Below are positions 20,844 through 57,615 of a DNA stretch of 64,000 nt, piece after piece. The first letter of the stretch is position 1; every line of letters begins with the position of its first letter. A model generated the notes under the pieces. It had not been told where the DNA came from. It saw only the letters and a list, made by a program, of their open reading frames with translations, and made no database searches. Made by a program: the position numbers and the translations under genes. Source of the stretch: Rhynchopus sp. YZ270_cl-10 (lineage: Eukaryota; Euglenozoa; Diplonemea; Diplonemida; Diplonemidae); contig OZ037839.1 in the NCBI GenBank assembly GCA_964035575.1, positions 1,315,220 through 1,379,219 of the forward strand. Direction: 5' to 3'.

Positions 20844-21660
20844 GGTCCGGGACAGGCTGCAGCGACGTTGTGTCGGGCACAGTGAGGAACGGCCAGCAGA
20901 GGAAGTCAGTGGTTGAAGCCCGTCCGAAACGCAGTGTGCACCACAGGAGGATTACCACAAGTGGCGGAGACGAACACACAAAGTGACGCCACGAGCTGCG
21001 CACTGCTCCCTCGAAGCTGCACGACGCACACCCTCACAGGCCACTCCTCCCGCAAGCACTGCAGACAACAGAGCTGGAATCGCTGCTGCAGCGGCTGCGT
21101 GTGTGCTGGGGTGTCATATGCGACGGCAACAGGCAGTTGGCCAGGGTGTGCACAAAGGTCGGAACGGTGTTGCAGCAGCAGTGCTTTGAGGGTGTATGGA
21201 GGTTGCAACACAAATGGATCGCATTCACCTTGCCACCGGTTCATTGCACTCCACCCTTGTAGCTCTTCCTCACAGCAGTTTTTTTTGAATACGCGGGTTT
21301 TCGAGGTTTTTTCGTGTCTTTTGGAGGTTTCACGTAAGAGAGAGAGAGGATGGACACGGTGGACAAAGAGAGGACAATAGCAAAATAGAGAATGGGGGGT
21401 ATTTCATTTTGTTTCTATTTTGTTGCATCTTGCCTCAACCTTGTATCTTTTCCACCATACACGAAAAGCTCCATTTTAGACACCTGCTTCCGCTTCAAGA
21501 CCTTACTCACTACCATATTTAAGGTGACTAAGCATGAGAGGCTTAGGTTCATCCCATAAGCTTTTGTTTTGTTTTGTTTACTTGTGCTTTCATCCGGATG
21601 GCTGGCATCGTACGTGGGTCAGTCGGAGGTGCCTGCATTAATAACTTCACTTTGTTTGCG
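20844..21660. other. Spacer duplicated with 25208-25510
   Basis: 20844-21160 is repeated behind the second long LRR gene (25208-25505). It keeps an open Ala/Thr/Arg-rich frame (20983-21189) that I do not regard as a gene. 21190-21425 is the shared family 3' region. An H1 stem-loop lies at 21523-21553. Confidence 0.45.
21523..21553 (+). ncRNA. Stem-loop family H1, copy a
   Basis: GGTGA and CTAAGC pair with GCTTAG and TTCATC around loop ATGAGAG; followed by CCATAAGCTTTTG. Confidence 0.5.
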
Positions 21661-21924
21661 ATGGAAATCACAGTAGAGACCTCAGACCTGCTTGCCTCCT
21701 GCACGGTGGAGGTGGGGGAGACTGCTGTGTGGGGTGTGGTGTTCGATGCTGGGGCGGAGCTGCTGTCGTGCCTGGCTGAGGAGGTCGAGGTGACACTGCC
21801 GGACGAGACGGCGGTGGAGGGGGGGACGGCCGTGAGCTCCTCCTCCTTGCAGCACGGCGACACTGTCCACGTTGACTACAGCGCGGCGTACGCACGCAAC
21901 CGTGCAAGGATGTGTCGCCACGTG
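21661..21924 (+). pseudogene. Broken ubiquitin-like domain gene fused to LRR leader
   Basis: ATG 21661 opens MEITVETSDLLASCTVEVGE and continues to GDTVHVDYSAAYARN, a ubiquitin-like domain of another subfamily. After it the DNA GCAAGGATGTGTCGCCACGTG matches 23278 onward but in another frame. The gene then breaks directly into the LRR leader at about 21950. Since no stop intervenes, the frame stays open into the LRR gene at 22027; a fused 409-residue reading is possible but the acceptor-like site between them argues against it. Confidence 0.45.
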
Positions 21925-22026
21925 AGGTGTACCGCTGTCTCAGCCCAGCCTATTTTGTTGTATCTTGCCTCCCTCCTCCTCCTTCTCAACACCACCCCAC
22001 AACAGAGCAACACTTCACTCGAAATA

Positions 22027-22803
22027 ATGGAACTGTATGTGCAGGGCTTGGGGAAGGACTTCCTGATGGAGGTGGGTGAGAACGACACAACGGAGACGAT
22101 GCGGCAGAAGGTGGCGTCTGCAACAGGGTTGTGCGAAGACAGCTTCCGCATGGGCTTCGGAGGGAAGGAGGAAGGAGAGGACATCACAGAACTGAGTGCT
22201 GGAGACACAGTCGTGTTGACGAAAACGATGAAGTACGAAGCCATATCAGCTCTTCATGCATTGGGTGAGACAGACATCACAGCAGAAAGGTTGCAGCAGG
22301 TGGAGGATCCGAAGGTGGCCAGCTTGCTTCTTCAGGCAGAAGTTGCGACTGAGATTCCAGAAGCCTTCTTCTCAAGTAGTGACGTAACGCGCATTGGTTT
22401 CAGTTGCGTACCCACAGTGGATGACAACTGTGGCATCACACTGCACCTGCCTGCATTACCTTGCGTCACCACGATTGCTCACGGGTTTCTCTACAGCTGC
22501 ATAAGGTTGTCGGAAGTGGACCTCACAGGCCTTCAAGCAGTCACCACGATTGGTGACGATTTTCTCTCCCAGTGCACCACGTTATCAGAAGTCGACCTGA
22601 CCGGCCTGCAATCAGTCACCACGATTGGTGACTATTTTCTCTTCGACTGCCAAACGTTGTCGAAAGTGGACCTGACCGGCCTGCAAGCAGTCACCACGAT
22701 TGGTGATGATTTTCTCTCCTCCTGCACATCGTTGTCGAAAGTCGACGGAAGGGACAAGTGTAGCAACGTTGTACGCAGCAGACTAGGTTACGTTGGTTTT
22801 TAG
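22027..22803 (+). CDS. Ubiquitin-like/LRR protein, short type, 3 repeats
   Basis: 258 residues. N-terminal ubiquitin-like domain beginning MELYVQGLGKDFLMEVGEND, linker LHALGETDITAERLQQVEDP and cap as in 18062, but only three DLTGLQ repeats before the tail VDGRDKCSNVVRSRLGYVGF. The lower repeat number is the main difference from paralogues with 5 to at least 7 repeats. Start at the MEL codon shared by the family, 21 bases after CAACAG. Intracellular adaptor by inference. Confidence 0.8.
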   Translation: MELYVQGLGKDFLMEVGENDTTETMRQKVASATGLCEDSFRMGFGGKEEGEDITELSAGDTVVLTKTMKYEAISALHALGETDITAERLQQVEDPKVASLLLQAEVATEIPEAFFSSSDVTRIGFSCVPTVDDNCGITLHLPALPCVTTIAHGFLYSCIRLSEVDLTGLQAVTTIGDDFLSQCTTLSEVDLTGLQSVTTIGDYFLFDCQTLSKVDLTGLQAVTTIGDDFLSSCTSLSKVDGRDKCSNVVRSRLGYVGF

Positions 22804-23158
22804 GGGCAGTAAAGAAAGCGGGAGTGGGAATTGGGGTGTTAGGATTATTGGGTGTGTTTGGGCGGGTGGTGGAGGTAGGTAACACAAATGGATGGCCTTC
22901 ACCTTGCCACCGGTTCATTTCACTCCACCCTTGTAACGAGACTCTCAGTTCTTCCTCACAGTAGTTTTTTCAATACGCGGGTTTTCGAGGGGTTTTCGTG
23001 TCTTTTGTGGTTTCAAACAGAGAGAGAGAGAGGATGGATACGGTGAACAAAGAGAGGACGACAGCAAAATAGAGAATGGGGGGTATTTCATTTTGTTTCA
23101 CTGTTTCAATGTGACCAGGCACGAGAGGCTTACGTTCATCTTATGAACCTTCCTTTCC
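22804..23158. other. Family 3' region with H1 stem-loop
   Basis: Repeats the common 3' region, including the AGAGAGAGAGAG tract and GGGGGGTATTTCATTTTG. Then 23111-23140 carries an H1-like loop (CACGAGAGG ... TTCATC) with weakened pairing. Confidence 0.45.
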
Positions 23159-23470
23159 ATGAAGGTGTATACTGTGAGCCCTTCCACACTGCAGCTTTTA
23201 CCCCATGCGGACGCTGCATCACACAGGACTCATGACCCTGTGTGTGCACTGAGCCCCGCGGTGCGGATCGCGGACTGCAAGGATGTGTGGCCACGTGAGG
23301 TGTACCGCTGTCTCAGCCCAGCGTTGCGTGAGGACAAGGTGTTGCTGCAGAAGCTTGCCCAACGGAGGAGACGCATCGTCCGTTTCTTCCCATCGCAGCT
23401 CTTTGAATGCTTGTGTTCAGCTTCAACATATTTTCCATTTCTCTCTTCTCACAACCGGCAAGTGAAATAA
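23159..23470 (+). pseudogene. Gene fragment, REVYRCLSPALRED
   Basis: The frame reads MKVYTVSPSTLQLLPHADA ... KDVWPREVYRCLSPALREDK. The central part matches, in another frame, the end of the fragment at 21661-21924, so both are relics of one gene family with an N-terminal ubiquitin-like domain. The rest of that gene is absent. Spacer DNA with the family leader resumes near 23480. Confidence 0.35.
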
Positions 23471-23638
23471 ACAAGAAAGCTATTTTGTTGTCAGCCCAAA
23501 GTCTTTTCTACTCCACATATGTGTCAGGGTGAGGATGAGTGAAAAACAAAACAAAGAAAGTTATTTTGTTGTATCTTGCCTCCCTCCTCCTCCTTCTCAA
23601 CACTTACCCCACAACAGAGCAACACTTCACTCGAAACA

Positions 23639-25207
23639 ATGGAACTGATTTTCCAGGGCTTGGGGAAGGACTTAGTGATGGAGGTGGGTGAGAACGACAC
23701 AACGGAGACGATGCGGCAGAAGGTGGCGTCTGCAACAGGGTTGTGCGAAGACAGCTTCCGCATGGGCTTCGGAGGGAAGGAGGAAGGAGAGGACATCACA
23801 GAACTGAGTGCTGGAGACACAGTCGTGTTGACGAAAACTACTAAGTACCAATCTGTTGAGGAACTTCGTGCCTTGGGTGAGACAGACATTTCCGAAGCGA
23901 GGTTGGCGACTGTGAAGGATCCTGAGGTGGCTTCTCTGCTTCTTCAGGCGGAGGTTGCGACTGTTATTCCGAGGCATTTCTTGAGTCTCGCGTCATCGTT
24001 TACGAGACTTGATCTCTCTGCTGTGTCTGTTGTGACACGAATTGAGCATGCCTTCCTCTTCGGGTGTGCGTCGGTTACAACCGTTGACTTGTCGGGATTG
24101 TGCAACGTTACGCACATTGGGAATGACTGTCTTTCGCACTGCACATCGTTGACAAGCCTTGACGTGTCAGGGTTCACTGGTGTGACGCTGATAGAGAACG
24201 GATTCCTCCAAGGAAGTGGCGTCACAGAGCTTGACTTATCCCGGATGACGAGTGTGACGAAGGTTGGCCGAAGTTTTCTTTTCAACTGCGACTCGTTGGA
24301 AAGGATTGACATCTCGGGATGGCGCAGAATCACGCACATTGAAGACGGCTTCCTCCAGAACTGCACCTCGTTGGCAACCATTGATTTGTCAGCTTTTTGC
24401 AGTGTCACGAAGATCGGCTCCAAGTTTCTCCACTCCTGCAAGTCGTTGACCACCATCAGCTTTTCAGGAATGACCAATGTGACGGTAATAGGCGAAGACT
24501 TTTGCACGGGTTGCACCTCGTTGGAAACGATTGATTTGACAGCACTGCACAGAGTTGTGAGGGTAGGGTACAACTTTCTTACGAGCTGCACCTCGCTGGC
24601 TAGTCTTGACCTCTCAGCTTTTGGCAGTGTCGCAGCTATCGGGCACAGCTTTCTTAGTCAGTGTTCATCATTGAAAACAGTTGACTTATCAGTGTTGTGC
24701 AGCATCAGGCTCATTATGCGTGGCTGGATGCAAGAATGCTCCGCGTTGACAACAGCAGACTTATCAGGAATGAGCAATGTTAGCCACATTAATGGATCTT
24801 TTCTGCAAGGGTGCGCATCCTTGACGACGCTGGACATGTCCGGTATAGGCAGTGCCACAAGGATCCAACACGACTTCCTGCGCAACTGCAACGCACTCAC
24901 AACAGTCGTCTTGCCAGGCAACATCGACATTCACGAGATGCCTCTCCCGATTGAAGTCGAAAAGAACGACAGCAGCAGGAAGACCTTCCATGCATGTGCA
25001 TGTGACATTTCCGCAAGGTTTACGGAACAGTTCGGAGGTGTGCGGACAGAAGATCTGGTACGAACAGACGTGTCTGGAAGTGCAAGACAATGTATTGCAT
25101 TGAAAGCAGGACAAGAAGGAGAAGGTTTGATGCAAGCACAAGAGGACGAGGACAAGCAGGAACTGGACAAACAGGAGCATGACAAGCAAGGGCATTTGGA
25201 GGGTTAG
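23639..25207 (+). CDS. Ubiquitin-like/LRR protein, long type, second copy
   Basis: 522 residues. Same plan as 19428: ubiquitin-like domain 1-67, linker LRALGETDISEARLATVKDP, about fourteen diverged LRRs and the C-terminal extension with KTFHACACDISARFTEQFGG and the Gln/Asp/Glu tail. It has two extra LRRs (around DLSAFCSVTKIG and SFSGMTNVTVIG) relative to the first copy, which accounts for the 51-residue length difference. The acceptor-like leader differs by one inserted T (ACACTTACCCC). The downstream 300 bases match those behind the first copy, showing duplication of a long-type plus short-type unit. Confidence 0.8.
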   Translation: MELIFQGLGKDLVMEVGENDTTETMRQKVASATGLCEDSFRMGFGGKEEGEDITELSAGDTVVLTKTTKYQSVEELRALGETDISEARLATVKDPEVASLLLQAEVATVIPRHFLSLASSFTRLDLSAVSVVTRIEHAFLFGCASVTTVDLSGLCNVTHIGNDCLSHCTSLTSLDVSGFTGVTLIENGFLQGSGVTELDLSRMTSVTKVGRSFLFNCDSLERIDISGWRRITHIEDGFLQNCTSLATIDLSAFCSVTKIGSKFLHSCKSLTTISFSGMTNVTVIGEDFCTGCTSLETIDLTALHRVVRVGYNFLTSCTSLASLDLSAFGSVAAIGHSFLSQCSSLKTVDLSVLCSIRLIMRGWMQECSALTTADLSGMSNVSHINGSFLQGCASLTTLDMSGIGSATRIQHDFLRNCNALTTVVLPGNIDIHEMPLPIEVEKNDSSRKTFHACACDISARFTEQFGGVRTEDLVRTDVSGSARQCIALKAGQEGEGLMQAQEDEDKQELDKQEHDKQGHLEG

Positions 25208-25646
25208 GGTCCGGGACAGGCTGCAGCGACGTTGTGTCGAGCACAGTGAGGAACGGCCAGCAGAGGAAGTCAGTGGTTGAATCCGTCCGTGCACCACAGG
25301 AGGATTCCCACAAGTGGCGGAGACGGACACACAAAGTGACGCCACCAGCTGCGCACTGCTCCCTCGAAGCTGCACGACGCACACCCTCACAGGCCACTCC
25401 TCCCGCAAGCACTGCAGACAACAGAGCTGGAATCGCTGCTGCAGCGGCTGCGTGTGTGCTGGGGTGTCATATGCGACGGCAACAGGCAGTTGGCCAGGGT
25501 GTGGTTCATCTTTAATATGTTTTCCATTTCTCTCTTCTCACAACCGACAAGTGAAACAAACTAAGAAAGCTATTTTGTTGTATCTTGCCTCCCTCCTCCT
25601 CCTTCTCAACACCACCCCACAACAAGGCAACACTTCACTCGAAACA
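25208..25646. other. Spacer between long and short LRR genes
   Basis: 25208-25505 duplicates 20844-21160; 25560-25625 is the family leader with ACCCCACAACAAGG, where the usual CAACAG has become CAACAAG, so the acceptor AG shifts by one base. No separate gene. Confidence 0.4.
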
Positions 25647-26573
25647 ATGGAACTGATTTTCCAGGGCTTGGGGAAGGACTTCGTGGTGGAGGTGGGTGAG
25701 AACGACACAACGGAGACGATGCGGGAGAAGGTGGCGTCTGCAACAGGGTTGTGCGAAGACAGCTTCCGCATGGGCTTCGGAGGGAAGGAGGAAGGAGAGG
25801 ACATCACAGAACTGAGTGCTGGAGACACAGTCGTGTTGACGAAAACGATGAAGTACGAAGCCATATCAGCTCTTCATGCATTGGGTGAGACAAACATCAC
25901 AGCAGAAAGGTTGCAGCAGGTGCGGGATCCGAAGGTGGCCAGCTTGCTTCTTCAGGCAGAAGTTGCGACTGAGATTCCAAAAAACTTCTTCCCACGTAGT
26001 AACGTAACGCGCATTGGTTTCAGTTGCGTACCCAATGTGGATGACAACTGTGGCATCACACTGCACCTGCCTGCATTACCCTGCGTCACCACGATTGGTC
26101 GCTGGGTTCTCTGCGACTGCCCAATGTTGTTGAAAGTCGACCTCAGAGGCCTTCAAGCAGTCACCGCGATTGGTGACAATTTTCTCTTCTCCTGCACCAC
26201 GTTGTCGGAAGTGGACCTGACTGGCCTGCAATCAGTCACCACGATTGGTGACGAGTTTCTCTCCGAGTGCACAGCGTTGTCGGAAGTGGACCTGACCGGC
26301 CTGCAAGCAGTCACCACGATTGGTGCCTATTTTCTCTCCTCCTGCACCACGTTGTCGAAAGTAGACCTGACCGGCCTTCAAGCAGTCACCACGATTGGTG
26401 CCCATTTTCTCTCCTCCTGCACCATGTTGTCGGAAGTGGACCTGACCGGCCTGCAAGCAGTCACCACGATTGGTAACTATTTTCTCTCCTACTGCACATC
26501 GTTGTCGAAAGTCGACGGAATGGACAAGTGTAGCAACGTTGTACGCAGCAGACTAGGTGACGTTGGTTTTTAG
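25647..26573 (+). CDS. Ubiquitin-like/LRR protein, short type, 5 repeats
   Basis: 308 residues: ubiquitin-like domain (MELIFQGLGKDFVVEVGEND), linker, cap, five 25-residue repeats from DLRGLQAVTAIG to DLTGLQAVTTIG, and the tail VDGMDKCSNVVRSRLGDVGF identical to that of the partial gene at 1-602. Although the frame is open further upstream (to 25314), that part is duplicated spacer, so the MEL start is preferred. Likely an intracellular binding protein. Confidence 0.8.
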   Translation: MELIFQGLGKDFVVEVGENDTTETMREKVASATGLCEDSFRMGFGGKEEGEDITELSAGDTVVLTKTMKYEAISALHALGETNITAERLQQVRDPKVASLLLQAEVATEIPKNFFPRSNVTRIGFSCVPNVDDNCGITLHLPALPCVTTIGRWVLCDCPMLLKVDLRGLQAVTAIGDNFLFSCTTLSEVDLTGLQSVTTIGDEFLSECTALSEVDLTGLQAVTTIGAYFLSSCTTLSKVDLTGLQAVTTIGAHFLSSCTMLSEVDLTGLQAVTTIGNYFLSYCTSLSKVDGMDKCSNVVRSRLGDVGF

Positions 26574-27302
26574 GGGCAGTAAAGAAAGCGGGAGTGGGAA
26601 TTGGGGTGTTAGGATTATTGGGTGTGTTTGGGCGGGTGGTGGAGGTTGCAACACAAATGGATGGCCTTCACCTTGCCACCGGTTCATTTCACTCCACCCT
26701 TGTAACGAGACTCTCAGTTCTTCCTCACAGTACTTTTTTGAATACGCGGGTTTTCGATGTTTTTTCGTGTCTTTTGGGGGTTTCAAACAGAGAGAGAGGA
26801 TGGATACGGTGAACAAAGAGAGGACGACAGCAAAATAGTGAATGGGGGGTATTTCATTTTGTTTCACTGTTTCAATGTGACCACGTACGAGAGGCTTGCG
26901 TTCATCTAATAAACCTTCCTTTCCATGAAGATGCCTCGCAAAAAGGCCCGTTCATTTACGTCAGGGGAGAAAACCGAAGAAACCGGATGTTGGCGAAAAA
27001 AAAACCCCCCCTAGCTAATGCCCTGGATGTATCACAGCACAAAGCAGACCAAAATCACTAAATATGCAGTCTTGCTATCCTGCGATCGAATTCAATACAT
27101 TTTAATATTGTGTATGCGTATGAGCCCCATGAGATTCTCCCCAAGAGAGTTACGTGTTGCATCATCACAAACGGGTGAAATGGCGGCTGGGGCTGCGGGG
27201 GACTCTCGTTTACGCTGCTTGAGCAGTCGGCGCTAACTACTGCACGTATTTTTGTTGAGACAAATGGGGGGTTGTTTTAAAATTTGGCTGGCCTCGTTGT
27301 GT
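26574..27302. other. Family 3' region and unique spacer
   Basis: 26574-26875 is the shared 3' region; 26877-26906 an H1-like loop with CGAGAGG and TTCATC. 26930-27300 is unique and has no coding signal. Confidence 0.4.
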
Positions 27303-29560: not shown

Positions 29561-29688
29561 ATACAACAAAAAAGTACGGCTTTGGCCGATGAGTGCAAGA
29601 TCTTTATACCAGGTGTGAAGTGATTGTCAAAACAAAAAAGAAGGAAAAAAAAAACCCCAAGAAGTGTGTATTGTGCGTATTGTTTAAA

Positions 29689-29723
29689 GGTGGCTAAGCA
29701 CTTTTGTGGAGCTTAGGTACATC
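29689..29723 (+). ncRNA. Stem-loop family H1, copy d
   Basis: GGTGG and CTAAGC pair with GCTTAG and TACATC; the loop is longer (ACTTTTGTGGA). Confidence 0.45.
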
Positions 29724-31284
29724 TTACCCGAACGTTTTTATTTATTTATTTTTGTGTGATTTTTCATTTTTCATTTTTTTTTTTATTTTTGTTGCTCTCG
29801 TATGTTATCACCATTCACTATTTTTAAAATCCTTTTGAAATGAGACGGGCCATGTGGTCATCTTATACAGTTACCATACCCGATCTTTTCAACAGTTTTG
29901 TTTCCTTCCCTCCTCCTCCCTCTCAACGGCTTCCAAACAAAATACTAGACCAGCCAGGGTAGATCCTTATTTTCGCTAAAAACGCTAAAAATACCAGATT
30001 TATTTTCGTTTTTTTCCTTTTTTTTTTCTCTCCCGTTTTTGAGATTTTTCCGCGCAGGCCTGACGCTAACTTTCAGGTTTTTGGGAAATCGTGTGGGGTT
30101 GACGGTTTGTCCGCGAGCGCAGCGAGCGCAAAAATTGAGTGACGGTCTAAAAAAAACCAACAAGCAGGTTGGTACTGTACTGAGGCAGAATAGTGGTGTT
30201 TTTTTACACATCTCAGCTGTCGTAGAACTAAACCCCAGGGGATAATATAGGTTTTGGGGGTTTTCGCTGAAACTCGGTCAAAACTCGGTCGAGCCCAACC
30301 CAGCTCGTTCGGGGACTCCGGCGGAATGTGAGAACTCCTCGGTTATCCAACTGCGGAGTTCGGCACTGCATTGATATTTGCACCAGGCACACGCAGTATC
30401 AGTAACCTCAGTACATTTGCCATGGCGAAGCCACGGTACGCAACATTTCTAAAAACTGCGCTCAAAATTGCACATTTTTACTGCCAAACTATGTCATGGG
30501 AAGGGTGGGTTGCAAGCTTGCGCCGAAGGCGCACGGTACGCCACTTTTTTCTCTCGCCATACTGCATGCTTCCTTTTCCTTCGGCGTTTGACCAATTAAA
30601 TCGCGTTCTGGCTGTGACCCTTGTCGGACACTGCGCCCTCTGACAAGGGTAATCCTTTCTAGAAACATTCTGAAAAAAGTGGTAGTGCCGGCATTAGCAA
30701 GAAAATTTTCCAGTGGTTAGGTTCGCAATTTTTGGGCCAAGTTCAAAATCCCACAAAAAATTAAGCGGGGATTTTCGACGATTTTGGCCTAACAGTGTTG
30801 TGTTTCTGCCTTGGTCCGGTTGAAGTCTTTATCCGTCCGCTTTGCGGGTTTGTGGACATCGTAATTGTGTTCTTCAAAAATACGCTTCAAAATTGTCTTA
30901 TGCAAGGTGACACTGAGAATTGACACTCATTGGTACTTGTCTTATGAAGTGAAGACAAATATTGAAGGGGCATTGGCGGGCCGAAGGCCAGCCAAAAAAA
31001 CGGTAGCGAACTTTTACTTTTTTTCCTTTTGGTTTCCCCCTTATTTTGACTTTCCGGATCGATTGCGGACCGTGGTGGTGCCACTCTGTGGCTGGAAATT
31101 AGTAGGTAACCAAAAAAATGGGCCAGAGAAAAAAGGAAAAAAAAAAAGGAAAAAAAAATAAAAAATCTCGGATCCTTATTTTCACTTTCGCTAAGGATCT
31201 ACCCTGAGACCAGCCTCCAAAAAATCTTTTTTTTTTTCAAAAACGTACAAACCACCAAATATATCCAGAAATTGGATCCAGTTT

Positions 31285-31455
31285 CTGGACTCCTTTTGAA
31301 CCTTAAAGTTTATAGGATGATCCTAAGCACGAGAGGCTTAGGATCATCTTATAAACTTTTCTTTGAATCTCTCGCAACTCTCTTACAGCGCGTCCGTAAT
31401 ATAGCCCCGCACTGTAAGAGAGTTGCAGCGGTTGCGAGAGCTTCAAAAGGAGTCT
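31285..31455. repeat. Nested palindrome containing an H1 hairpin
   Basis: Outer pair GACTCCTTTTGAA (31288-31300) with TTCAAAAGGAGTC (31442-31454). Inside lie a 24-bp hairpin (31305-31359) and a second one, GCAACTCTCTTACAG against CTGTAAGAGAGTTGC (31376-31424), whose loop GCGTCCGTAATATAGCCCC recurs at 31518-31538. Three stems thus fold within 170 bases. Confidence 0.7.
31305..31359 (+). ncRNA. Stem-loop family H1, copy e, 24-bp stem
   Basis: Left arm 31305-31328 and right arm 31336-31359 pair over 24 positions with one G-T wobble, around the loop ACGAGAG. It shows the fullest version of the H1 fold: CTAAGC/GCTTAG at the top, GATGATC/GATCATC below, and AAAGTTTATA/TATAAACTTT at the base. Confidence 0.65.
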
Positions 31456-32294
31456 TAATCGCGCCTAATTATGGGTAAGTCCAATATTTACCCATAATTA
31501 AGTTACCCATAATAAAACGCGTCCGTAATATAGCGCCCCACTGTATGTCCAGGCAATCGAACGAGGTGTCATCTCTGAGCGTGTAGAAGGGCGATATTTT
31601 TAAGGAGTGAAAGAGAAAAAAAAAAAGTTTCTTGGATTTATTGGTTGTTTGCATTTTTAAAAAAGAGTGCATTCAATTCCTTTGTTTGAGATGTGTATAC
31701 ACTTGAGGTATATTCATCATTCAAAAAATTTTTTTTGTTCGGACATACCGGCATTCTAGAGTTGTCGGCATCAACTTGCACTTTTTTTTTTTATTTTGAT
31801 GAAAAAAGGTAAGGCCAATTTAGCTTGGTAGATGTCCAGGGTTCAGGAGACCAGGACCTTATTTGTAAACCACCTGATTTTTACCGAATAAGGACCGTAT
31901 ACGCGCCTGTACGTGGGGTAAAAATCAGGTGAGTAAAATAGGTGAAAAAAAGGGGGAAAAAAAGGCCCATCTGAATTTTATCAGCAGTTCAAGTGTATTT
32001 TTTTTTACCTCTTTTTTACCCCTCCTTTTTTTGAGTTTTTTGTTTGAAAGATCTGCTTCGCAGTCTTGCAGCAGTTTATCTTCTGGGAAAACCCCCACAT
32101 CCCCATCCCCCCTCCCTCAATCCTTTTTTTTTTAAAGATGACCAGCGAGTTGTCAATCTCGACCCCTCCCAGAGCACCATCATTGTGTGTGTTTTTTTTT
32201 AGCTCTCATTGCGCTTTGACTTTCCAAAATACGCTTCCCAACGGGAAATAAGCTGGAATATGAGAGGCACTCTTATTTTAAAAAAAAGGCTAGA
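31456..32294. repeat. Spacer with hairpins, no gene
   Basis: 31471-31500: TAATTATGGGTAA/TTACCCATAATTA hairpin. 31518-31545: second copy of CGTCCGTAATATAG followed by CACTGTA, resembling a transposon end. 31690-31718: H2 stem-loop. 31860-31935: CACCTGATTTTTACC and GGTAAAAATCAGGTG, an inverted repeat; a related pair occurs at 57378-57480. Confidence 0.5.
31690..31718 (+). ncRNA. Stem-loop family H2, copy a
   Basis: GATG and TATAC pair with GTATA and CATC around ACTTGAG. Confidence 0.5.
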
Positions 32295-35111: not shown

Positions 35112-35198
35112 GCCGTGATGATATCAACTGGTGTTGGTTGCAGACTTCAAATCTGTAGGCGGGGTGACCCGCAGCGGTTCGATTCCGCCTTCGCGGTG
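35112..35198 (+). tRNA. tRNA-Sec (anticodon TCA)
   Basis: 87 bases. Acceptor stem GCCGTGA pairs with TCGCGGT (G-T first pair, one T-G). D stem of six pairs, ATCAAC with GTTGGT around TGGT, a hallmark of eukaryotic tRNA-Sec. Anticodon arm GCAGA-CTTCAAA-TCTGT gives anticodon TCA. Long variable arm GCGGG-GTGA-CCCGC. T arm GCGG-TTCGATT-CCGC. A run of five T follows directly (35199-35203), a polymerase III terminator. It inserts selenocysteine at UGA codons that have a SECIS element. No intron. It lies between the SKP1-like and sulfatase genes on the same strand. Confidence 0.93.
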
Positions 35199-37069: not shown

Positions 37070-38022
37070 AAAGGAATCAAAAAAAAGATGAGATTTTCAG
37101 TAAATGTGTGATATTTTTTGTTAGGTGCAAAAAAGGGGGAGGAAGGGTAGAGAAGGAACGAAAGATGGAGGTGGGGGGTCTTTTAAAAAAAGAGAAGAAG
37201 AAGAAAAAAAAAAGAGCGTGTGTGGGGAAATGTGAAAAACGCGTTGTCGTGTGATTTGTTTATATAATTTTTTTTTTTACTTTTTATTCCCCCCCCCTAA
37301 TTTGCATCTTTTGGTTTTTTTTTGTGTTGTGGATCCTCCACTTTTCGCTCTCCCTTTTTTGTTTTATTTTTTTCTCCATTTTTTTTCTTTTTCGCGTTTT
37401 TTTTCCCCCCCATTTTTGTTTTGTTATTTGGGTGCCACCTTGCAAGGGTATTATATGATAAGCATCAACAGAACAAAAATGGAAGAAAAAAAAAAGCACA
37501 ATTTTTTTAAAAGGTGACTAAGCACAGAGAGGCTTAGGTTCATCTCATAAACGTATTTTTATTTTTTATTTGTTTAGCTTTTGAAAAACACTGGAAACAG
37601 CCGATCTCCGCTCTCACAGCTGCGTTCAGAGTGAAACGAAGGGGTTTTTTTAAAAGAAGGTGATGATGATGTCATGCATATGCACTTTGTTCGTTCTCTG
37701 GCTCTTTGCTGTACGTAGGATTTCGCTTTCAGTGTGATTTGAAAAAAAGAAAACAGAAAAAAAAAACCCCGTAAATTTTTAATGCACTGCACTCCCCAAG
37801 AGTCTCAGATACTATCCTATAGTGTTTTTAGAGAGTTTTAACGATGTTGTTATTTGGCTGCCACCTGCCAGGGGAGCATTCTCTGATAAGCATCAACAGA
37901 AAAAAAGAGAAAAAAACTTTCGTGGAATTATTTTTTTTGGGGGGATTTTTTTCTACCAAACTCTCAAGGACTCTCGGGGATTTCAATGTATGTAAACCGT
38001 GTAAATTCTGGACTTTTTTTTA
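37070..38022. repeat. Spacer with stem-loops H1 and H7
   Basis: 37431-37474 and 37851-37901 are H7 copies sharing GGnTGCCACCT, then CTGATAAGCATCAACAGAA (first copy ATGATAAGC). 37513-37544 is H1. The rest is T/A-run rich. No gene seen. Confidence 0.45.
37513..37544 (+). ncRNA. Stem-loop family H1, copy f
   Basis: GGTGA and CTAAGC pair with GCTTAG and TTCATC; loop ACAGAGAG; followed by TCATAAACG. Confidence 0.5.
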
Positions 38023-38785: not shown

Positions 38786-38983
38786 CAAAAAGATAATCAA
38801 AAAAGGGAGGGGCTTTAGGCAATGTTGAGTATGTGAATCCCCCACCTCCCCAAGGTGGGGCGGGGCGGAAGGGGGGGCTTCTTTGATGAACAAAAGTGCA
38901 CAAAAACTCAAAAACACCAATTGCACTTCTTCTGATTCATTTCAGCACTGATTCACGTTGCCCATTTTTTCATTTGTGTTTAA

Positions 38984-39009
38984 GATGTGTATGCACGCGA
39001 GTCATATCC
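38984..39009 (+). ncRNA. Stem-loop family H2, copy b
   Basis: GATGTGTATGC, loop ACGCGA, then GTCATATCCAT; pairing is partial. Confidence 0.35.
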
Positions 39010-39053
39010 ATTTTTCCTCTTTTTGCTATACTTTTTCTCCCTTAGGTGACTTA

Positions 39054-39084
39054 GGTGACTTAGCAGGCGAGACTTAAGTTCATC
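39054..39084 (+). ncRNA. Stem-loop family H1, copy g
   Basis: GGTGA and CTTAGC against ACTTAAG and TTCATC; loop AGGCGAG. Confidence 0.4.
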
Positions 39085-39192
39085 TCAAACCCCCCCTTTC
39101 CCCTCTTTTGTTGCTTTTCTGTTGTGTGCGGGTGTGCAGCTGACAACGCGAGCCAGGGTTTTTTTTTACAGGATATTTTTCTTCTTCTTTTT

Positions 39193-39225
39193 GATAGTGT
39201 GCACGATTGTGCGGGCACATTCATC
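39193..39225 (+). ncRNA. Stem-loop family H2, copy c
   Basis: GAT and GTGTGC pair with GCACAT and ATC around ACGATTGTGCGG; followed by ATTCAAA as in copy a. Confidence 0.45.
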
Positions 39226-40198
39226 ATTCAAAATTTTCAAAAAACGCTGTGTTTGTGATGCACCAGTCCATGCAGCCGCAACAGAACAAAAAAAAAAAAA
39301 AAAAAATAGTGTATAGCAGAGTACGTGCTCTCTCGGTGTCTCTTACCTGCACAAACTGTTAACACTCTGTCCCGGACGGTGTTTTTTAAAACATATGTGG
39401 CATTGCATTCGAACGCGTGTTCCCGTTTTTTTTTAAAAGGAGTTTTCGGGTGCGCGTTTTAAAAACGAAAAAAAAAGAGCGCGTTTTGAAAAAAAAAATG
39501 AAAATCGTGTTTTTTTCAAACTACCCGGGACGGGAGGTTTTCGAACGCGCGTTTGGGAGGGGGGTGAAAAAAACTGGAATGCAGTTTTTCAAACGCGCGT
39601 TCGGATGCTATGATGTGCATAGAAAAAATATATATTCTGGGACACAGTGTTTAAAACAAAACGAACAAACATCCCCTCAAAACAAAACGTCTTGTTTCGC
39701 CCCTCCATTTTTTTTTTTTTTTTTTTTTTTTGTTTTTGCGTGCTTTATCGTGTCTGAGTGTTCCCAAAGAAAAAAAAAAAAAACGAAACAACAAAACAAC
39801 AAAAAGAACGAAACCAATCACAACCCACTTCCATTCTCTCTTTTTTTTAAAATCACAAAAACTTCGTTACTAAATTTTCATTGCCACATGGATGTCCACC
39901 CCCCAACAGGATTATGTTGACAACGAGCCTGACTACTACTCAAGCCATATCAAAGGAAGAGGTCTGTCCATTTCCTGCGCACTTTGTACCCCCTTTCGCC
40001 CGTCTCTCTCTCAGGGCAAATGATCTGATATACTACGCCACCCGCTTTTTCTGTTCTTGATCTCTGAGCCCTGAACTGAAAGATTGCTCTCCCTCTCTTC
40101 CCCCCGCAATCTCGAGTCATTTCTGTACTTCAGGAAAGCGGATGTTTCCTACTGACTCACCCCAGCCTCAACAGAACACATCCATTCTATTGATGGAC

Positions 40199-46012: not shown

Positions 46013-46431
46013 TACCCATAGGGAGTGGGCGGTGGTGGTGGTCCACCCTCCCCTTTTGTCCCACCCTTATCTCTTGCCTTGTGACCTCCCTCACCCCACT
46101 CCACAGCTCTCAAATTAATTCTGTTCCCACCCCTTCCCCCGTCTCCCTTGTCCCCAATGGCAGATATTTTTGCAGATGACGACACTTAGATTCAACCTCT
46201 CTCTTTCTCTCTCTCTTAGTGTATTTGGGTAACTAAATCGCGGCTGTCATCCCGTGATAGTAGCCTGAAAGCAAACATTCTATTTTTATTTTTCTATTAT
46301 ACCTTCTATTCAGTAGAATAGTTAGTATATTGAAACAATTTTTTTTGGTGTGGCTGAAGGGGGCTGATGCGCACTTTTCCCGCACTTTTTCCGCCCCCCA
46401 TTCAGCCACACCAATTTTTATTTTTATTTTA
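46013..46431. other. Spacer with stem-loop H5
   Basis: H5 copy at 46242-46265; TTCTATTCAGTAGAATAG hairpin at 46306-46323, as at 8626; GGTGTGGCTGAA (46350) with TTCAGCCACACC (46401) form an inverted pair. Confidence 0.4.
46242..46265 (+). ncRNA. Stem-loop family H5, copy a
   Basis: GGCT/AGCC outer pair and ATC/GAT inner pair around CCGT. Confidence 0.45.
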
Positions 46432-46469
46432 GGTGACTAAGTTCATACCTGTCGTGGCCTAGGTTCATC
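46432..46469 (+). ncRNA. Stem-loop family H1, copy h
   Basis: GGTGACTAAG opens and CTAGGTTCATC closes around a longer loop. Confidence 0.35.
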
Positions 46470-46601
46470 GTACAAAAATCTCTCTCTCTCTCTGTTATTT
46501 TCCTTTATGTTTTGTTGTTAAGCCGCCTTTTCGGTGTTCCGGTCACGTACCAAAAAGATGCCAGTCATGAGCGGGCTTTGTATTTCATTTTATTTTTTCA
46601 A

Positions 46602-46630
46602 GATGTGTGCACGAGAGAGGCACATGCATC
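46602..46630 (+). ncRNA. Stem-loop family H2, copy d
   Basis: GATG and TGTGC pair with GCACA and CATC around ACGAGAGAG, the same loop core as H1 on a different stem. Confidence 0.55.
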
Positions 46631-46739
46631 TTTCAAGTTTTCCTTTTTTTTCGTGGACTCAAAATATGTTTGGCGTCCCAAAAAAAAAGGCACCACATTT
46701 CCCCCAAAAAATCCCCAAATCCACCAAGCAAGAAAGTTG

Positions 46740-49261: not shown

Positions 49262-49502
49262 TAATACAACCAAGTTTTCAAAGAAAGGTTGAACTTCCAA
49301 AAAAAAATCCTGAAAAGGTCGAACATCATTGCAGTCGTCAATTTTTTTTTCGATTTGTGGTAAAGGGTCCGCTAAATGGTCAGAACTTTTTAACTAGCCC
49401 CGAAACAACAAAACAAGCGTATCAGTACTTCTTCTTTGTTGACAGGTATACATACACTGTCACAAGAGGGTTTGTATGTCAAGACACCTTTTTTGTGGTC
49501 AA

Positions 49503-49530
49503 GGTGACGTATGCGAGGCTTAAGTTTATC
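49503..49530 (+). ncRNA. Stem-loop family H1, copy i
   Basis: GGTGACGTATGCGAGGCTTAA then GTTTATC; short and degenerate. Confidence 0.3.
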
Positions 49531-49744
49531 TTTTTTTTTTTCGCGTTTTTGGTATTTTTCATAATATTATTTCACCGCCGAAAAAATAACATTTGCGCCC
49601 TCAGGCTTTGCGAGAAACTCCTCAGTTCTCTGCTTTGTGCATCTGGGTCACTCTGGGCGTAAAGCGTTTATGAATGGCACTGAATAGGTATTCTTTCCCC
49701 TTTAGAAACCCCCATGAGGCCCGAGAAGGTAGTATTTTTTAAAA

Positions 49745-49771
49745 GATGCGTGCGCGCGAAGCACATTTACC
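49745..49771 (+). ncRNA. Stem-loop family H2, copy e
   Basis: GATG and CGTGC opposite GCACA and TTACC around GCGCGAA. Confidence 0.4.
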
Positions 49772-49789
49772 TTTTATTTTTAATTTTTT

Positions 49790-50192: not shown

Positions 50193-50257
50193 TGCTATTT
50201 TTTTTTGATACAGACCTTCTATTTTGCTCTCTTTTAAGGATCCTGTGAACAACAAAT

Positions 50258-50988: not shown

Positions 50989-50992
50989 TTAA

Positions 50993-51421
50993 CGATTTTA
51001 TCTTGATTAATTTCAGTTCTCCGTTGTGTGCACAATGACCCCCCACTTCTCCTGAGTTTTGTTTTATGATTACCGAATGTGATAAAGGTGGCACTTCACT
51101 GCACCTCACATATTTAGCCACCGTTTGGGTCACACTTTTTTGTGATCAAAGGGTGACTAAGCAACAAGAAGATTTGGTTCACTTTCTAAATGCTTCTTTT
51201 GTTTTGTTTCGGGTCTCGCTATCCCACGGCGCGTCTGCGCCTTCTGTCCCCAGAGACCCCAGGGGGTGTTTTTATTTTTTTTTTTTGAACCACAATGAAT
51301 AACGAAGGTCCCAGCGGATCTGACAATCGATAGCGGCGCGCTTTTCTTAGATGTGACTTTTGCTGGACGGAACTTTTCGTGATGCATTGTACCAATCTTT
51401 GTTTTTCTTTTTTGAGACATA
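50993..51421. other. Spacer
   Basis: Holds a degenerate H1 at 51152-51186 (GGTGACTAAGC with TTGGTTCACTTTC). No gene seen. Confidence 0.3.
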
Positions 51422-51524: not shown

Positions 51525-51584
51525 TACGCACCCATACTCATTTGGTATTTTATTTTTTTCCGTGCACAGCAACAAAAAAAAATA

Positions 51585-51612
51585 GTGGAGCACACTCTGG
51601 GGGTGGCTACAC
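51585..51612 (+). ncRNA. Stem-loop family H6, copy d
   Basis: GTG-G-AG-CAC pairs with GTG-G-CT-A-CAC; tail TGATACAAACCAA. Confidence 0.5.
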
Positions 51613-51831
51613 TGATACAAACCAATTTTTCAAACAAAGAAAATGCGAGGTGTCTACACGTTATCAATTATTTATTCAAACATAAATGCTAGAACCTCAG
51701 CCTAGGCCTTCTCTTTAAGAGTAGTTAGTATTCTGGTGAAGACTTGTACGCATAGGCTTGCTGCTAACCATACAGATCAAAACACAAAAAAACCGCCCCC
51801 CTCTTTTGGGTACACTGTGTTTCCACAAAAC
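51613..51831. other. Spacer, no gene seen
   Basis: Unique sequence leading into the leader of the PDZ gene. Confidence 0.3.
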
Positions 51832-51861
51832 TTCTCATCCCCACCCCCCTCCCCTGCACAG
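51832..51861 (+). promoter_or_regulatory. Putative trans-splice acceptor of the PDZ gene
   Basis: CATCCCCACCCCCCTCCCC then TGCACAG, ending 92 bases before the chosen ATG. Confidence 0.45.
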
Positions 51862-51882
51862 AACACACTGCACCATGACACC

Positions 51883-51957
51883 ATGCGTTGGCCCTACCCT
51901 GCTTCGAAGATAACCCACCCTCCAAAATTGGATTCGGAAACAAACAGCCCACAATGA
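51883..51957 (+). other. Upstream reading frame overlapping the PDZ start
   Basis: ATG 51883 opens 24 codons and stops at TGA 51955-51957, which overlaps the main start as ATGA. Another, 12 codons long, begins at ATG 51874. Such an overlap could tune initiation on the main frame. Confidence 0.45.
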
Positions 51958-53735: not shown

Positions 53736-54100
53736 AGGGGAGGAGGTGGAGGTTGAGGTGCAAGAGGAGGGGGGGGTAGTTATGTATTGGATTTTTTTTT
53801 TTCTTGTGCGCCTGGGTTTTTTGCTCACTTTGACTGAATGTGGGTGGCAAAGGTGCATTATATAGTTTCGAGAACAAAATCTCAAACGCCCATTTTTTTT
53901 TTTTCTGGCCTTGAAGCCATTCCACAGTACCTTCACGCCCGACGCGTATCTTTTGTGTTTTTTTTAAAAAAAATCAGTATTGCACAGTGGGAGTGCATCC
54001 TCGGGTGGCTACACTAATACAAACCAAGTTTTCAAAAAAAAAAAAACGTACATTCTGTGCAATTTTTGCACAGGAGAGGGCCCTACCCGTCTCCCCCACA
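53736..54100. other. Spacer with H6 stem-loop
   Basis: 53987-54014 is H6 copy e (GTG...CTACAC, tail TAATACAAACCAAG). The rest is T/A-run rich. Confidence 0.35.
53987..54014 (+). ncRNA. Stem-loop family H6, copy e
   Basis: GTGGGAGTGCATCC opposite GGGTGGCTACAC; pairing with mismatches. Confidence 0.4.
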
Positions 54101-54166
54101 CACGGTGACCATGCCCCGGGTATCATGTTGTTTCATCATGCTACCCAGGGGCACATGGTCACCGTG
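54101..54166. repeat. 66-bp palindrome
   Basis: CACGGTGACCATG pairs with CATGGTCACCGTG; inside, CCCCGGGTA and TACCCAGGGG continue the stem with small bulges. Confidence 0.65.
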
Positions 54167-54471
54167 ACACCATAGGAGATTTGGCGTTTTTTCTCTCGTC
54201 CATGTTTATTTAGTTTATAGATGACTGAGTACTAATCGGGGGTAATTCTTGCGCAGAATATGGCCCCAATGTGGATGCAGAAGAGACGCGTCCATCTTGA
54301 CAATTTTTCTTTTTCTTTTCTATATGGGTATGTTCACGTGGGGCATATTCAATTTTTTTCTTCTTTTGCGTTTCCCTCAAAAAATCCCCATCTCACTCCC
54401 CCCGCGCATTTGTGCTACACAGTTAGCACTGCCACGTTGTGTATGTAAACAATAATAAACCCTGTTCTTTA

Positions 54472-54502
54472 GGTGACTAAGCACGCGAAGCTTAGAATCA
54501 TT
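54472..54502 (+). ncRNA. Stem-loop family H1, copy k
   Basis: CTAAGC/GCTTAG around ACGCGAA; flanks GGTGA and ATCATTTT. Confidence 0.5.
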
Positions 54503-54523
54503 TTACCGTTTTTTTTAAATATA

Positions 54524-54551
54524 GAGGTGTCCACGAGAGGCACATTTCGTC
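54524..54551 (+). ncRNA. Stem-loop family H2, copy f
   Basis: GAGGTGTCC, loop ACGAGAGG, then CACATTTCGTC; only 20 bases after the H1 element. Confidence 0.45.
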
Positions 54552-55374
54552 TTTAGGTTTTCTATGTATTTTTTTTTGGGGGGTCACTGTACGCCAGGGG
54601 ACATTGGTAGTTTGAGATTTTGAAAAAAAAGCCGGTGTGAGCCAAAAAAGCCGGTGTGAGGCAATTTTTTTTTCCCCACGCATTTTTGGCAGAGACCTCC
54701 ACAACTCTTTCCCCTCCGCGCCCTTGTCTAACCATATGGCATCAAAACTTTTCTGGCGAAGCCACGGTACGCAACATTTCAAAAATTGTGACATAAAATC
54801 GCACGCTTTTATAGCCAAACTATGGTAAAGGTAGCTGTGACTATGGCCTAGGGTAGAGCTGTGGGCTACCGCTCGTCATTTTTAGCTGCGCCGCAGGCGC
54901 ACGGTACGCTACTTTTTTATGAGAGTTGCAAACATCTATTTCTTTTGATTGAACGGACCGATTGGTCTTTGTGGTGGGGTCACATGCACATAAGAAACCG
55001 CTACAGATGTGGTTGTAGCCTTGTATGAGGAGATAAAATTCAGAAAAAAATTCAAAAATCTGCCTTTTTCTTTTTTTTTTTTTTTTTTCTCAAAATCCCA
55101 CACCGGCTTAGCCGGTGTGGCCACACCGGCACACCGGCATACTAATGTCCCCTGCTGTACGCCCCATATGCGGCACCTGGTCACCGTATGCCCTCCCCCA
55201 CCCCCCTGTTAATTGTTGCCGCTCACACCATGCTTTTTTTTGGTTTTTGTTTTTTTTTTCCATTTGCGCTCCAGGGTTCGATAACCCCACGCGTTCCATC
55301 CACCCTAGTACACCTTCTTCCTAATCCCATGGCGTTTTTTTTTTTTTTTTTTTGCACGACCGACCTTTATCTGC

Positions 55375-55403
55375 GATTCGTATGCACAAGAGGCACCTTC
55401 ATC
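55375..55403 (+). ncRNA. Stem-loop family H2, copy g
   Basis: GAT and TGC around ACAAGAG with GCA and ATC; followed by TTTCAGG. Confidence 0.4.
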
Positions 55404-55625
55404 TTTCAGGCCCTTTTTTTTTCTTTTTTTCTTTTAAATATCGCGCCTTGAAAGATAAACGAGGTGCAGTGTGCCGCATTGCCACTCAACTCCTCTGTAC
55501 ACCCCCTTCCGCCTAGTCAACTTCATGTTTCTCCCCACCCTTAAATTTTTACTTAATAGACAGGTACACCCCCACTCCGATCAGGGGAAATGATTGCGTA
55601 CCGTTCAGGTACATATGCTATAGAA

Positions 55626-56875
55626 AGACAACAAACACTGGTGGGGTAAAAACTAAGGTTGCCCCTGAAATAAAAAATACCAAGTACGCAACAACTACGC
55701 ACTAAGTACGCAAACGAGGCCGAGTCGGCCTCGCCAAGGCCTGAAAATAAATACTCAGGCGTGCCTGAGGCGTACTCGGGATTAGTTACGTTTAAGTACG
55801 CCTCAGGCACGCCTGGGTATATTTATATTTCTTACCAGCATTTTGGTTCAAATGCGGGGTCGCACGATGAAAAATGCGCCTCTGGGCCGAGCGAGTCGAA
55901 AAAATGAAAAGGGTTCGCTAAGCTTTGGTGCTGATGATATATATTTTGGTGGTACCTTCGGGTATTTCATTGATTCAAGAATCATTGTAAACAAATCTCG
56001 GGGGTGCTTTTCGACTGGGTCCCTTCGGGGCCAACTTGATGCAAGACGGAAGAGGCTCATACAAGGCTGGACCCTCTAACACTAGAGAGATCCCATCGAG
56101 ATCCCAGAATTTTACACAGGCCTCCTTGATCCACAGACCACAGCTCTATTTTTAGTACAACTATGGGGTGACCAAAGGACTTATTTATACTTTTTTATAC
56201 CCTAGGTATAACTCATCTTCTGCGAAGCCTCTTTTTAGGAGGCAGTTTACTGTAAGCAGTAACCATGATATTTTTCCACTAAAGATATCTTGCGACCCCG
56301 CAATTTTCTCAGCAGGACACCAAAAGTTGATTTCAGCACATTTCAGGGGGCGGAGGAAATACATGGCATGACTTAGAAACGTGGTGACCTGTGCATAATA
56401 ATTTTACATATCAGTAGAAATATGAAACCGAGTGTACTTTCCCCTGCTTTTTGGTACAAACTTAAAGTCACGCATTTTTTGCTAAAAAAATTGTCCGACC
56501 CCGGAATTTTTTCAGATCGCTCCGGAAATGCATCAGAGGCCCTTTTTGCGGGGGGAAAATACACACCAGGCGCCTGAAACGCAATTATACGTTGATATAT
56601 ACTCAGGCGTGCCTGAGGCGTACTTAAACGTAACTAATCCCGAGTACGCCTCAGGCACGCCTCAGATATATTTTCCAGATACGAGTATTTTCAGGCGTAC
56701 CCGGCCTCGTTGCATTGTATGGCAATATAGGGTATTCCTGTATTTTTTTTTTTCCGTGCACAAAGTGCGCAGCAAGTACGCAAAATGGGGTTTTCAGGAG
56801 CACCAAAGGTAGTTTTTTTTTTTGCGATTTTAAAACTACTAAGGAGGGTTTTCACCCCACCGCTGTTTGTTGTCT
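55626..56875. mobile_element. 1.25-kb foldback element with nested palindromes
   Basis: Ends AGACAACAAACACTGGTGGG at the left and the inverse at the right (CCCACCGCTGTTTGTTGTCT). Inside each end, ACTCAGGCGTGCCTGAGGCG pairs with CGCCTCAGGCACGCC (55761-55815; 56600-56665), and GGCCGAGTCGGCC lies at 55720-55732. No coding sequence recognised. Confidence 0.65.
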
Positions 56876-57196
56876 AACTGTAACTATACCACACCTTAGT
56901 ATATTCAAGCCGAATACTTGAAGAGGGAAAGGTCCAAACAATAATAAACAAAAGTCGGTCCTTTTTTTCAGATGTAAACCTCGAAATGGATGTAGGACTG
57001 CATTGGGGGTCCACCCCACGGTGCACCGTTCATCTCCCAGAAGCCACACTGTCACGAGAGGGGTTTGGGTTTTGTATTTCAATTCAACTTTTTTTTTGGG
57101 GGTGCAAACACCGGTAAACGAGTCTACTAGGCACTTCTTTGAGACGTAATATCAAAGGACACATTCACATTTTCTCGAAATTCCATTTTTTTAAAA

Positions 57197-57228
57197 GGTG
57201 ACTAAGCACGAGAGGCTTAGGGATCATC
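57197..57228 (+). ncRNA. Stem-loop family H1, copy l
   Basis: GGTGA and CTAAGC pair with GCTTAG and ATCATC around ACGAGAG; followed by TTATAAACTTTTC as in copy e. Confidence 0.55.
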
Positions 57229-57318
57229 TTATAAACTTTTCTTTTCTTTTTTCCACAATGAGCCACAAAGCGTGCTCCTTCTTGCTCTCTTTTAAGGGTC
57301 CTGCGAAGAGAAAACCAC

Positions 57319-57343
57319 GGCTGCTATCTTTGTGATAGTAGTC
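57319..57343 (+). ncRNA. Stem-loop family H5, copy d
   Basis: GGCT/AGTC and TATC/GATA around TTTGT. Confidence 0.5.
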
Positions 57344-57516
57344 TATAATTTAGCAATATTTTTTCCACAATGAGCCACCTGATTTTTACCCCCACGAAGA
57401 GGTGCGTATAGGGTGTAGAGGACCGTATCCGCGCCTGTACGTGGCCTGTACGCACTTATACGCGGGGTAAGTCTCAGATTAGATGAGGTTCAAAAAGTAC
57501 AAAAAAAAAATTGACA

Positions 57517-57562
57517 GTGGAGATTGCACCAACTGTGGCAACACAACCGAGGCAATCTACAC
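57517..57562 (+). ncRNA. Stem-loop family H6, copy g, extended stem
   Basis: GTG-G-AGATTGC pairs with GCAATCT-A-CAC; GTGGCAACACAACC in the loop; tail TACTCCAACAATTTATC. Confidence 0.55.
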
Positions 57563-57587
57563 TACTCCAACAATTTATCAAAAAAAA

Positions 57588-57615
57588 GGTGACTCACTAG
57601 AGAGGTAGGTTCATC
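57588..57615 (+). ncRNA. Stem-loop family H1, copy m
   Basis: GGTGACTCACTAGAGAGGTAG then GTTCATC; directly follows H6 copy g. Confidence 0.4.

Follow-up and report, generated by a model that had tools for sequence, protein, structure and literature searches.

A strand-biased hairpin family in the window

The window analysed here is the whole of a 64,000-nt stretch of the diplonemid Rhynchopus sp. YZ270_cl-10 (contig OZ037839.1, here C7, positions 1315220-1379219), and it carries a family of short hairpins in two forms, H1 and H2. Both are laid out as a lower stem, an upper stem, a loop near ACGAGAG and a T-rich tail, and the H2 copies are also matched by the H1 model. A preliminary description of the window had reported about twenty such elements, all on the plus strand. 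Using profiles and a covariance model (R1), we identified 21 copies, 13 of H1 and 8 of H2, all 21 on the plus strand, which is the gene strand, and the six copies named as the best were recovered where they had been placed. These results confirm a strand-biased hairpin family with a constant loop on two different stems. Some window copies went into building the models, so the model scores in the window are circular, and the independent test is the genome.

Among the H1 copies, R1 gave 77.3 bits to that at 57189-57250, which is near consensus, 73.4 bits to that at 21515-21575, where the hairpin and T-rich tail correspond to the 3′ end of the long interspersed nuclear element (LINE) described below, and 73.2 bits to that at 37505-37566, whose loop is ACAGAGAG. 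The copy at 29681-29745 has an enlarged loop (55.4 bits), and that at 54464-54524 (56.2 bits) has an H2 copy directly after it. Degenerate H1 copies lie at 23102-23162 in an array of leucine-rich repeat (LRR) genes (62.2 bits), at 26868-26928 as a duplicate of the former (60.8 bits), at 57580-57637 (51.8 bits), at 39046-39106 (49.9 bits), at 46424-46491 with a large loop (49 bits) and at 49495-49552 (39.1 bits); a very degenerate, marginal one occupies 51144-51205 (22.8 bits, E 0.046). The H2 copies were scored with nhmmer at 46594-46652 (46.8 bits; 34.4 bits with R1), 31679-31726 (37.0 bits), 38971-39022 (36.0 bits), 39181-39236 and 54507-54561 (31.1 bits each), and, in degenerate form, at 49736-49776 (19.6 bits), 55375-55410 (18.6 bits) and 54316-54354 (marginal, 18.1 bits). 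The copies at 51144, 49736, 54316 and 55375 are the weak ones among the 21, and a further, weaker covariance-model match at 54262 (E 0.058) was excluded.

The remaining H1 copy, at 31305-31359 (60.5 bits; covariance-model match listed from 31310), is a perfect palindrome: over 24 bp its two arms, 5′ and 3′, are exactly complementary. Read in mirror image, this copy also accounts for the sole minus-strand match in the window at E <= 0.1. It looks like the product of templated quasi-palindrome correction. The palindrome was rejected as a mobile form, as its core pattern has only one exact match in the genome, namely itself. A possible TTTGAA repeat stands on both sides. A search for an empty site by way of the repeat that surrounds 31305 found no second copy.

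The hairpins had been said to avoid coding regions altogether. This holds for ORFs (open reading frames) of at least 200 aa in the window, none of which is met by a copy except in one edge case: the 21515 copy meets the start of the stop-to-stop frame 21547-22803, judged by eye to be well ahead of the ATG of its paralogues. It does not hold for shorter mechanical ORFs: the copies at 46594, 49495, 51144 and 54507 overlap ORFs of 105-155 aa, and 4 nt of that at 23102 fall in an ORF of 103 aa.

A second short module (CTTTCATCCGGATGGCTGGCATCGTACGTGGGTCAGTC) stands just after several H1 copies (window 21581-21666 and loci L025:2978, L017:5334 and L021:3693). It lies 54-273 nt past gene stops, on the gene strand where checked, and has a hairpin fold by eye.

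H1 matches the 3′ terminus of a LINE

A genome search with the reverse transcriptase (RT) domain RVT_1, in which the best 150 of 739 candidates were scored, brought out one family, L, with 27 hits and an ORF of 1462 aa. This ORF contains Exo_endo_phos (E 1.8e-13) and RVT_1 (E 2e-24) domains, and its RT region matched LINE-1 ORF2p chains in the PDB (E 1e-18); the nearest relatives with a named organism are Diplonema papillatum proteins, with a best identity of 48%. At locus L082, the ORF ends at 5697 and the H1 match begins at 5702, which puts the stem base ~11 nt past the stop. We then read the 3′ ends of 12 further copies (L088-L099) chosen from the 27 hits. In 12 of 12 the hairpin lies at most ~35 nt from the predicted place, six of the stretches including the last codons and the stop and six beginning just past it, and the flanks diverge right after the T-rich tail, which varies. 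All 13 L copies whose 3′ end was read have the hairpin as their 3′ terminus. In addition, at three dispersed loci (L014, L077/L065 and L074/L071) a stretch of 68-78 nt, running from the last LINE codons or the stop through the hairpin, matches the LINE at 95-96% identity. Because the hairpin stands at the predicted place in 13/13 copies and dispersed loci match the LINE end, the sequences identify H1 as the 3′-terminal stem-loop and T-rich tail of an endonuclease/RT LINE. Retroposition had been set aside in the preliminary description, a choice that the hairpin's place at the LINE terminus in every copy read speaks against. The argument made there, that one orientation would not follow from retroposition by itself, was fair, and this orientation is what still needs explaining.

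Truncated copies and a second tail

The dispersed H1 copies are, judged by their ends in the sequence, 5′-truncated LINE insertions, most of the measured ones cut to the hairpin itself. Seventeen of the 20 copies with enough flank stop at the stem base, no more than 4 nt from the core, and the other three extend 20-30 nt further; this sample favours near-consensus copies, and two of the four dropped for short flank (L043 and L047) also extend further. The 5′ ends form a ladder in which the longest H2 measures ~125-130 nt in all and others start stepwise down to the hairpin, and H1 behaves likewise. Three H2 copies (L028, L073 and L074) have ~125-130 nt in common, with the hairpin at the end. 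We looked for a tRNA-like head in the long copies and found no tRNA. The tails that follow the hairpin are variable: (CTTTT)n, (GTTTT)n or Tn.

H2 would be the counterpart tail, at the 3′ end of a partner that is a SINE-like (short interspersed nuclear element-like) unit of ~125-130 nt in all or a second LINE. The constant loop over two stems suggests one machinery that reads two tails.

Hairpins and genes point the same way across the genome

The genome searched comprises 152.4 Mb in 126 contigs. An exact 31-mer of H1 occurs at 222 places (112 forward and 110 reverse, in 152 Mb), a 36-mer variant at 576 (297 and 279) and an exact 29-mer of H2 at 91 (48 and 43), while the reversed-pattern control of each gave 0/0. 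Equal numbers on both strands had been offered as an outcome that would refute a strand-biased family. Taken literally, that is what the genome contains, but the argument overlooks that genes lie equally on both strands, which accounts for the near-equal counts of H1 and H2.

We therefore asked how elements are arranged along contigs, using the first 100 of the 222 and the first 100 of the 576 H1 places listed, and the best 40 of 915 and 40 of 764 DNA candidates scored. After two self-hits were left out, pooling of the matches listed gave 350 distinct elements. Along contigs, minus copies lie to the left and plus copies to the right, that is, with one divergent switch. Among the matches listed, a one-switch model accommodates 329 elements on the 64 contigs with at least two elements each with three exceptions, all on contig C2; the same elements with random strands gave a mean of 80 exceptions and a minimum of 65 in 1000 draws. 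Adding the 27 L copies brought no extra exception, where random strands gave a mean of 9.9 and a minimum of 4. The sample scanned showed no antisense H1 or H2, even among ~50-nt or degenerate copies in multi-kb spacers.

Genes follow the same layout. The gene sample consisted of 127 kinase matches (the best 127 of 685 candidates scored) and 66 tubulin matches, 193 in all, after second pieces were removed (four from the 131 kinase rows, two from the 68 tubulin rows). The gene strand foretold by the elements agreed in 73 of 73 cases, 117 of the 193 genes not being testable and three on C2 being set aside. Elements and genes together make 533 features on 90 contigs with four exceptions, again all on C2, compared with a mean of 54 and a minimum of 37 when gene strands were random. 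On every sampled contig except C2 (90 with at least two features), genes and elements point outward to the ends. The switch is not always central; on C22, for example, it lies somewhere from 26 to 333 kb. Over the 200 kb upstream of the window, the ORFs switch from minus to plus and the elements switch with them. On C2, both the elements and three genes form three blocks, plus, minus and plus (212820-2072079); C2 may be a fused chromosome or an assembly join.

Tests of a role in host RNA

The hairpins had been proposed to act as a processing signal, a small RNA or an mRNA 3′-end element. This is not supported: there is neither a significant excess after stop codons nor an acceptor signature downstream. 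When profile and covariance-model hits were pooled, 13 of 27 elements lay within 1 kb after a stop against 9.8 at random (P 0.135, in a small sample). Copies had seemed to precede a pyrimidine tract plus AG, but targeting of trans-splice acceptors was rejected, as this combination follows 5 of 29 elements, no excess over control T-tracts (31 of the 148 in sense, 20 of the 102 in antisense).

The sense strand folded better in all six copies folded both ways (-13.3 versus -7.8 kcal/mol at L008 and -15.9 versus -12.9 kcal/mol at L058), a result as compatible with a signal in the LINE RNA as with one of the host. Departures from the Watson-Crick consensus pairs are mostly one-sided. In H1, with 31 of 40 rows placed, there are 38 one-sided departures, 8 of them G-U, and of the two-sided changes one keeps Watson-Crick pairing and three do not; in H2 (24 of 30 rows), 35 are one-sided (5 G-U) and 4 two-sided. 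Two-sided pairs are few, and no compensatory pattern emerged within H1 or within H2. Nor do G-U pairs exceed A-C mismatches (8 versus 13 in H1, 5 versus 11 in H2). A pooled alignment did show 36 double-changed cells against a shuffled mean of 16.5, but it mixes H1 and H2 and was fitted to the structure. The statement that pairing is kept while bases change is accordingly right mainly for H1 compared with H2, compensation within each family being rare.

Host elements recruited from the LINE and selected in pre-mRNAs or 3′ untranslated regions, for processing, stability or as small RNAs, would explain the better folding of the sense strand and the G-U pair that each consensus stem has on that strand. 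We regard this as improbable, given that enrichment after stops is not significant and new G-U pairs are no commoner than A-C mismatches; moreover, the duplicates at 23102 and 26868 differ at 5 of ~52 hairpin sites, their upstream flanks being 94% identical.

How the one-way orientation may arise

We consider it probable that H1 is the tail of LINE L, that H2 is the tail of a partner, and that insertion is directional with the gene cluster, the direction probably being set by transcription. The ORF2 protein of L would read the loop common to H1 and H2 and start reverse transcription in the tail. New copies would enter oriented like the genes of the long unidirectional cluster, with the direction set at insertion, most likely by transcription; the template strand might be nicked or opened behind the polymerase. 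Target composition by itself would leave the bias incomplete, because T-rich tracts are merely 1.3-1.5 times commoner on the sense strand: in 174 kb, runs of at least eight T number 148 sense and 113 antisense, and pyrimidine tracts of at least 15 number 113 and 75. In the same 174 kb, CTTTTCTTT occurs 13 times in sense and twice in antisense. Six of the 13 follow an element-like motif, and others belong to a degenerate copy or are neighbours of the L024 copy, so that this word is partly the elements themselves.

Other retroelements provide a comparison. With RT families grouped by E-value and ORF length rather than by a tree, L has 21 sense and 0 antisense copies with 6 untestable, and the other families pooled have 50 sense, 33 antisense and 40 untestable (Fisher P 1.4e-4). 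Ten of the 15 other testable families include antisense copies, and the remaining five have 1-3 testable copies each. Family a (1364 aa), for example, has 5 sense and 12 antisense copies, and adding its 20 copies to the one-switch model brought 12 extra exceptions. A 986-aa family with RVT_1 and a weak RVT_3, found at L015:1998-4958, has 3 sense, 3 antisense and 2 untestable copies genome-wide.

Several observations weigh against directional insertion of L and its partner, some of them by favouring random insertion followed by selective loss of antisense copies harmful to the polycistronic transcript. The contrast between L and the other RT families depends largely on some families: without family a, the others stand at 45 sense to 21 antisense (P 0.004), and in a post hoc pool of M, N, O, Q, R, T, d, g and j the ratio is 33 to 6, from which the 21 to 0 of L differs at P 0.08. 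A milder sense lean may thus be general among retroelements here (families other than a, b, c, e, f and S), which fits selection equally well, and because of this lean our confidence in directional insertion is lowered and that in selection raised. Spacer repeats in 147 kb of the plus cluster, 64 kb of it outside long ORFs, form 163 direct and 65 inverted pairs, and 16 of their 27 families are direct only, H1 (10/0) among them, so that a lean to one orientation is not unique to H1. As to target-site duplications, a non-simple word is shared by the two flanks in 1 of 21 cases for H1 (0.6 expected, P 0.5) and in 2 of 11 for H2 (0.2 expected, P 0.007), in a test of 32 rows, two of which (L082 and L028) had no left flank, and one that T-rich sites blur. 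Likewise, a parent for H2 was sought in nine loci of six other RT families and no hairpin was found, although the stretch for family a falls short of the 3′ end and in M, R, N, Q and O the start-open frame ends inside the stretch. Sense bias is also known for Leishmania SIDERs (short interspersed degenerate retroposons), reported to be ~4-fold inside gene clusters (PMC2689281). Against selection, antisense copies persist in other RT families (33 of 83), Tc1-like (L014:5726-6790) and hAT-like (L022:4253-7453) transposases lie antisense, and no antisense H1 or H2 copy appeared in the sample scanned. A bias at insertion is favoured because purging would need to be complete for ~50-nt remnants while antisense copies of other RT elements persist, and we consider selection as the sole cause unlikely. 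The excess of direct spacer pairs arises in part because gene arrays duplicate their spacers, and some hairpin copies do lie within duplicated arrays (the LRR array; L003-L007). Segmental duplication of genes plus spacers would accordingly yield direct-only repeats and give orientation as a by-product, but many near-identical copies have unrelated flanks right outside the element and 11 of the 27 spacer families contain inverted pairs (for example, 22 direct to 28 inverted with near-palindromes included, 4 to 3 and 2 to 2), which makes it a most implausible source of the pattern.

Directional insertion could also be imposed by replication, and it counts against a role of transcription that the two directions coincide on ordinary contigs. 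With one origin near each divergent switch and a LINE that primes on one strand of the fork, the single switch of every sampled contig but C2 would follow. IS200/IS605 and Tn7 are documented cases of orientation directed by the fork, and human LINE-1 ORF2p is reported to bind PCNA (PMC5371812). A simple pattern for the PCNA-interacting (PIP) box was absent from the 1462-aa ORF, and also from two comparison proteins, so its absence says little. On C2, the plus block at 0.2-0.8 Mb would need a further origin near the left end, and because of this requirement C2 leans to transcription. We view the fork as a possible determinant, though a rather unlikely one. As to directional insertion in its strictest form, in which the LINE inserts obligatorily co-directionally with RNA polymerase II (or the fork) and the tail-sharing partner H2 inherits this property, the evidence leaves us evenly divided.

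Other features of the window and the genome

The gene array at 19356-26573 of the window has LRR_5 repeats and weak, below cut-off matches to the ubiquitin family, and is duplicated together with its 3′ spacers. A selenocysteine tRNA gene with anticodon TCA lies at 35112-35198. Genome-wide, the 68 tubulin-domain matches are spread over many contigs, and none has an internal stop.

The euglenozoan leader end TTTCTGTACTNTATTG has two matches in the genome, each by eye shortly before an open frame or ATG. These sequences resembling a spliced leader (SL), which end in TTTCTGTACTTTATTG, lie at L029 (reverse strand, ~1500) and at L051 (~263), as in retrocopied trans-spliced mRNAs. With just two SL-like matches, the assembly may lack SL RNA genes, or these may differ. 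The dinoflagellate/perkinsid spliced-leader pattern had no match in the genome, and a dinoflagellate origin, at first considered, was rejected.

Comparison with known systems

LINE insertion is usually thought to be nearly orientation-neutral at birth, with selection shaping the survivors. The finding of no antisense L, while 10 of 15 other testable RT families have some, points to a step of target-primed reverse transcription that reads direction, or else to unusually strict purging. If the former is true, L would be a retrotransposon intrinsically able to sense which way its target is transcribed. In the one-way clusters of this diplonemid, each tail marks the local direction of transcription, as in the 73 testable genes. 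A LINE with a 3′ stem-loop is already known, and the new part is the orientation. We found no description of the L family or of a one-way diplonemid LINE in the literature covered, most subscription journals lying outside that coverage.

L resembles the stringent-type LINEs UnaL2, ZfL2-1 and ZfL2-2 in having an endonuclease/RT ORF and a 3′ end made of a stem-loop followed by a variable short-repeat tail, with no encoded poly(A). The two tails with one loop, H1 and H2, and the 5′-truncated copies likewise recall these LINEs and their tail-sharing SINEs. In the stringent type, the ORF2 protein is reported to bind the stem-loop of the 3′ tail, the stem in a general manner and the loop specifically, and changes in the stem-loops of ZfL2 and UnaL2 lower retrotransposition (PMC4176376). 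L differs from them in its diplonemid host, in a hairpin only ~11 nt past the stop, in that most measured copies are cut to the hairpin, and in having no antisense copy seen within gene clusters.

Other parallels concern genome and orientation. The nearest named relatives, the LINEs of D. papillatum, were compared by their RT region; genes of that species are reported to lie in long one-way clusters, and its mRNAs to be trans-spliced (PMC10161547). As in IS200/IS605 and Tn7, orientation follows the polarity of the chromosome arm (PMC5371812); these are bacterial DNA transposons, and nothing here implies an enzyme of their kind, for which no search was made. The hairpins resemble Leishmania SIDERs, themselves remnants of extinct retroposons, in being short and lying mostly in sense within polycistronic clusters, a comparison that concerns remnants and orientation rather than the 79-nt hallmark common to related trypanosomatid retroposons. 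SIDERs are described as ~4:1 sense, with antisense ones enriched between poly(A) and splice sites (PMC2689281), whereas among the matches listed the 329 hairpin elements on 64 contigs show no exception outside C2.

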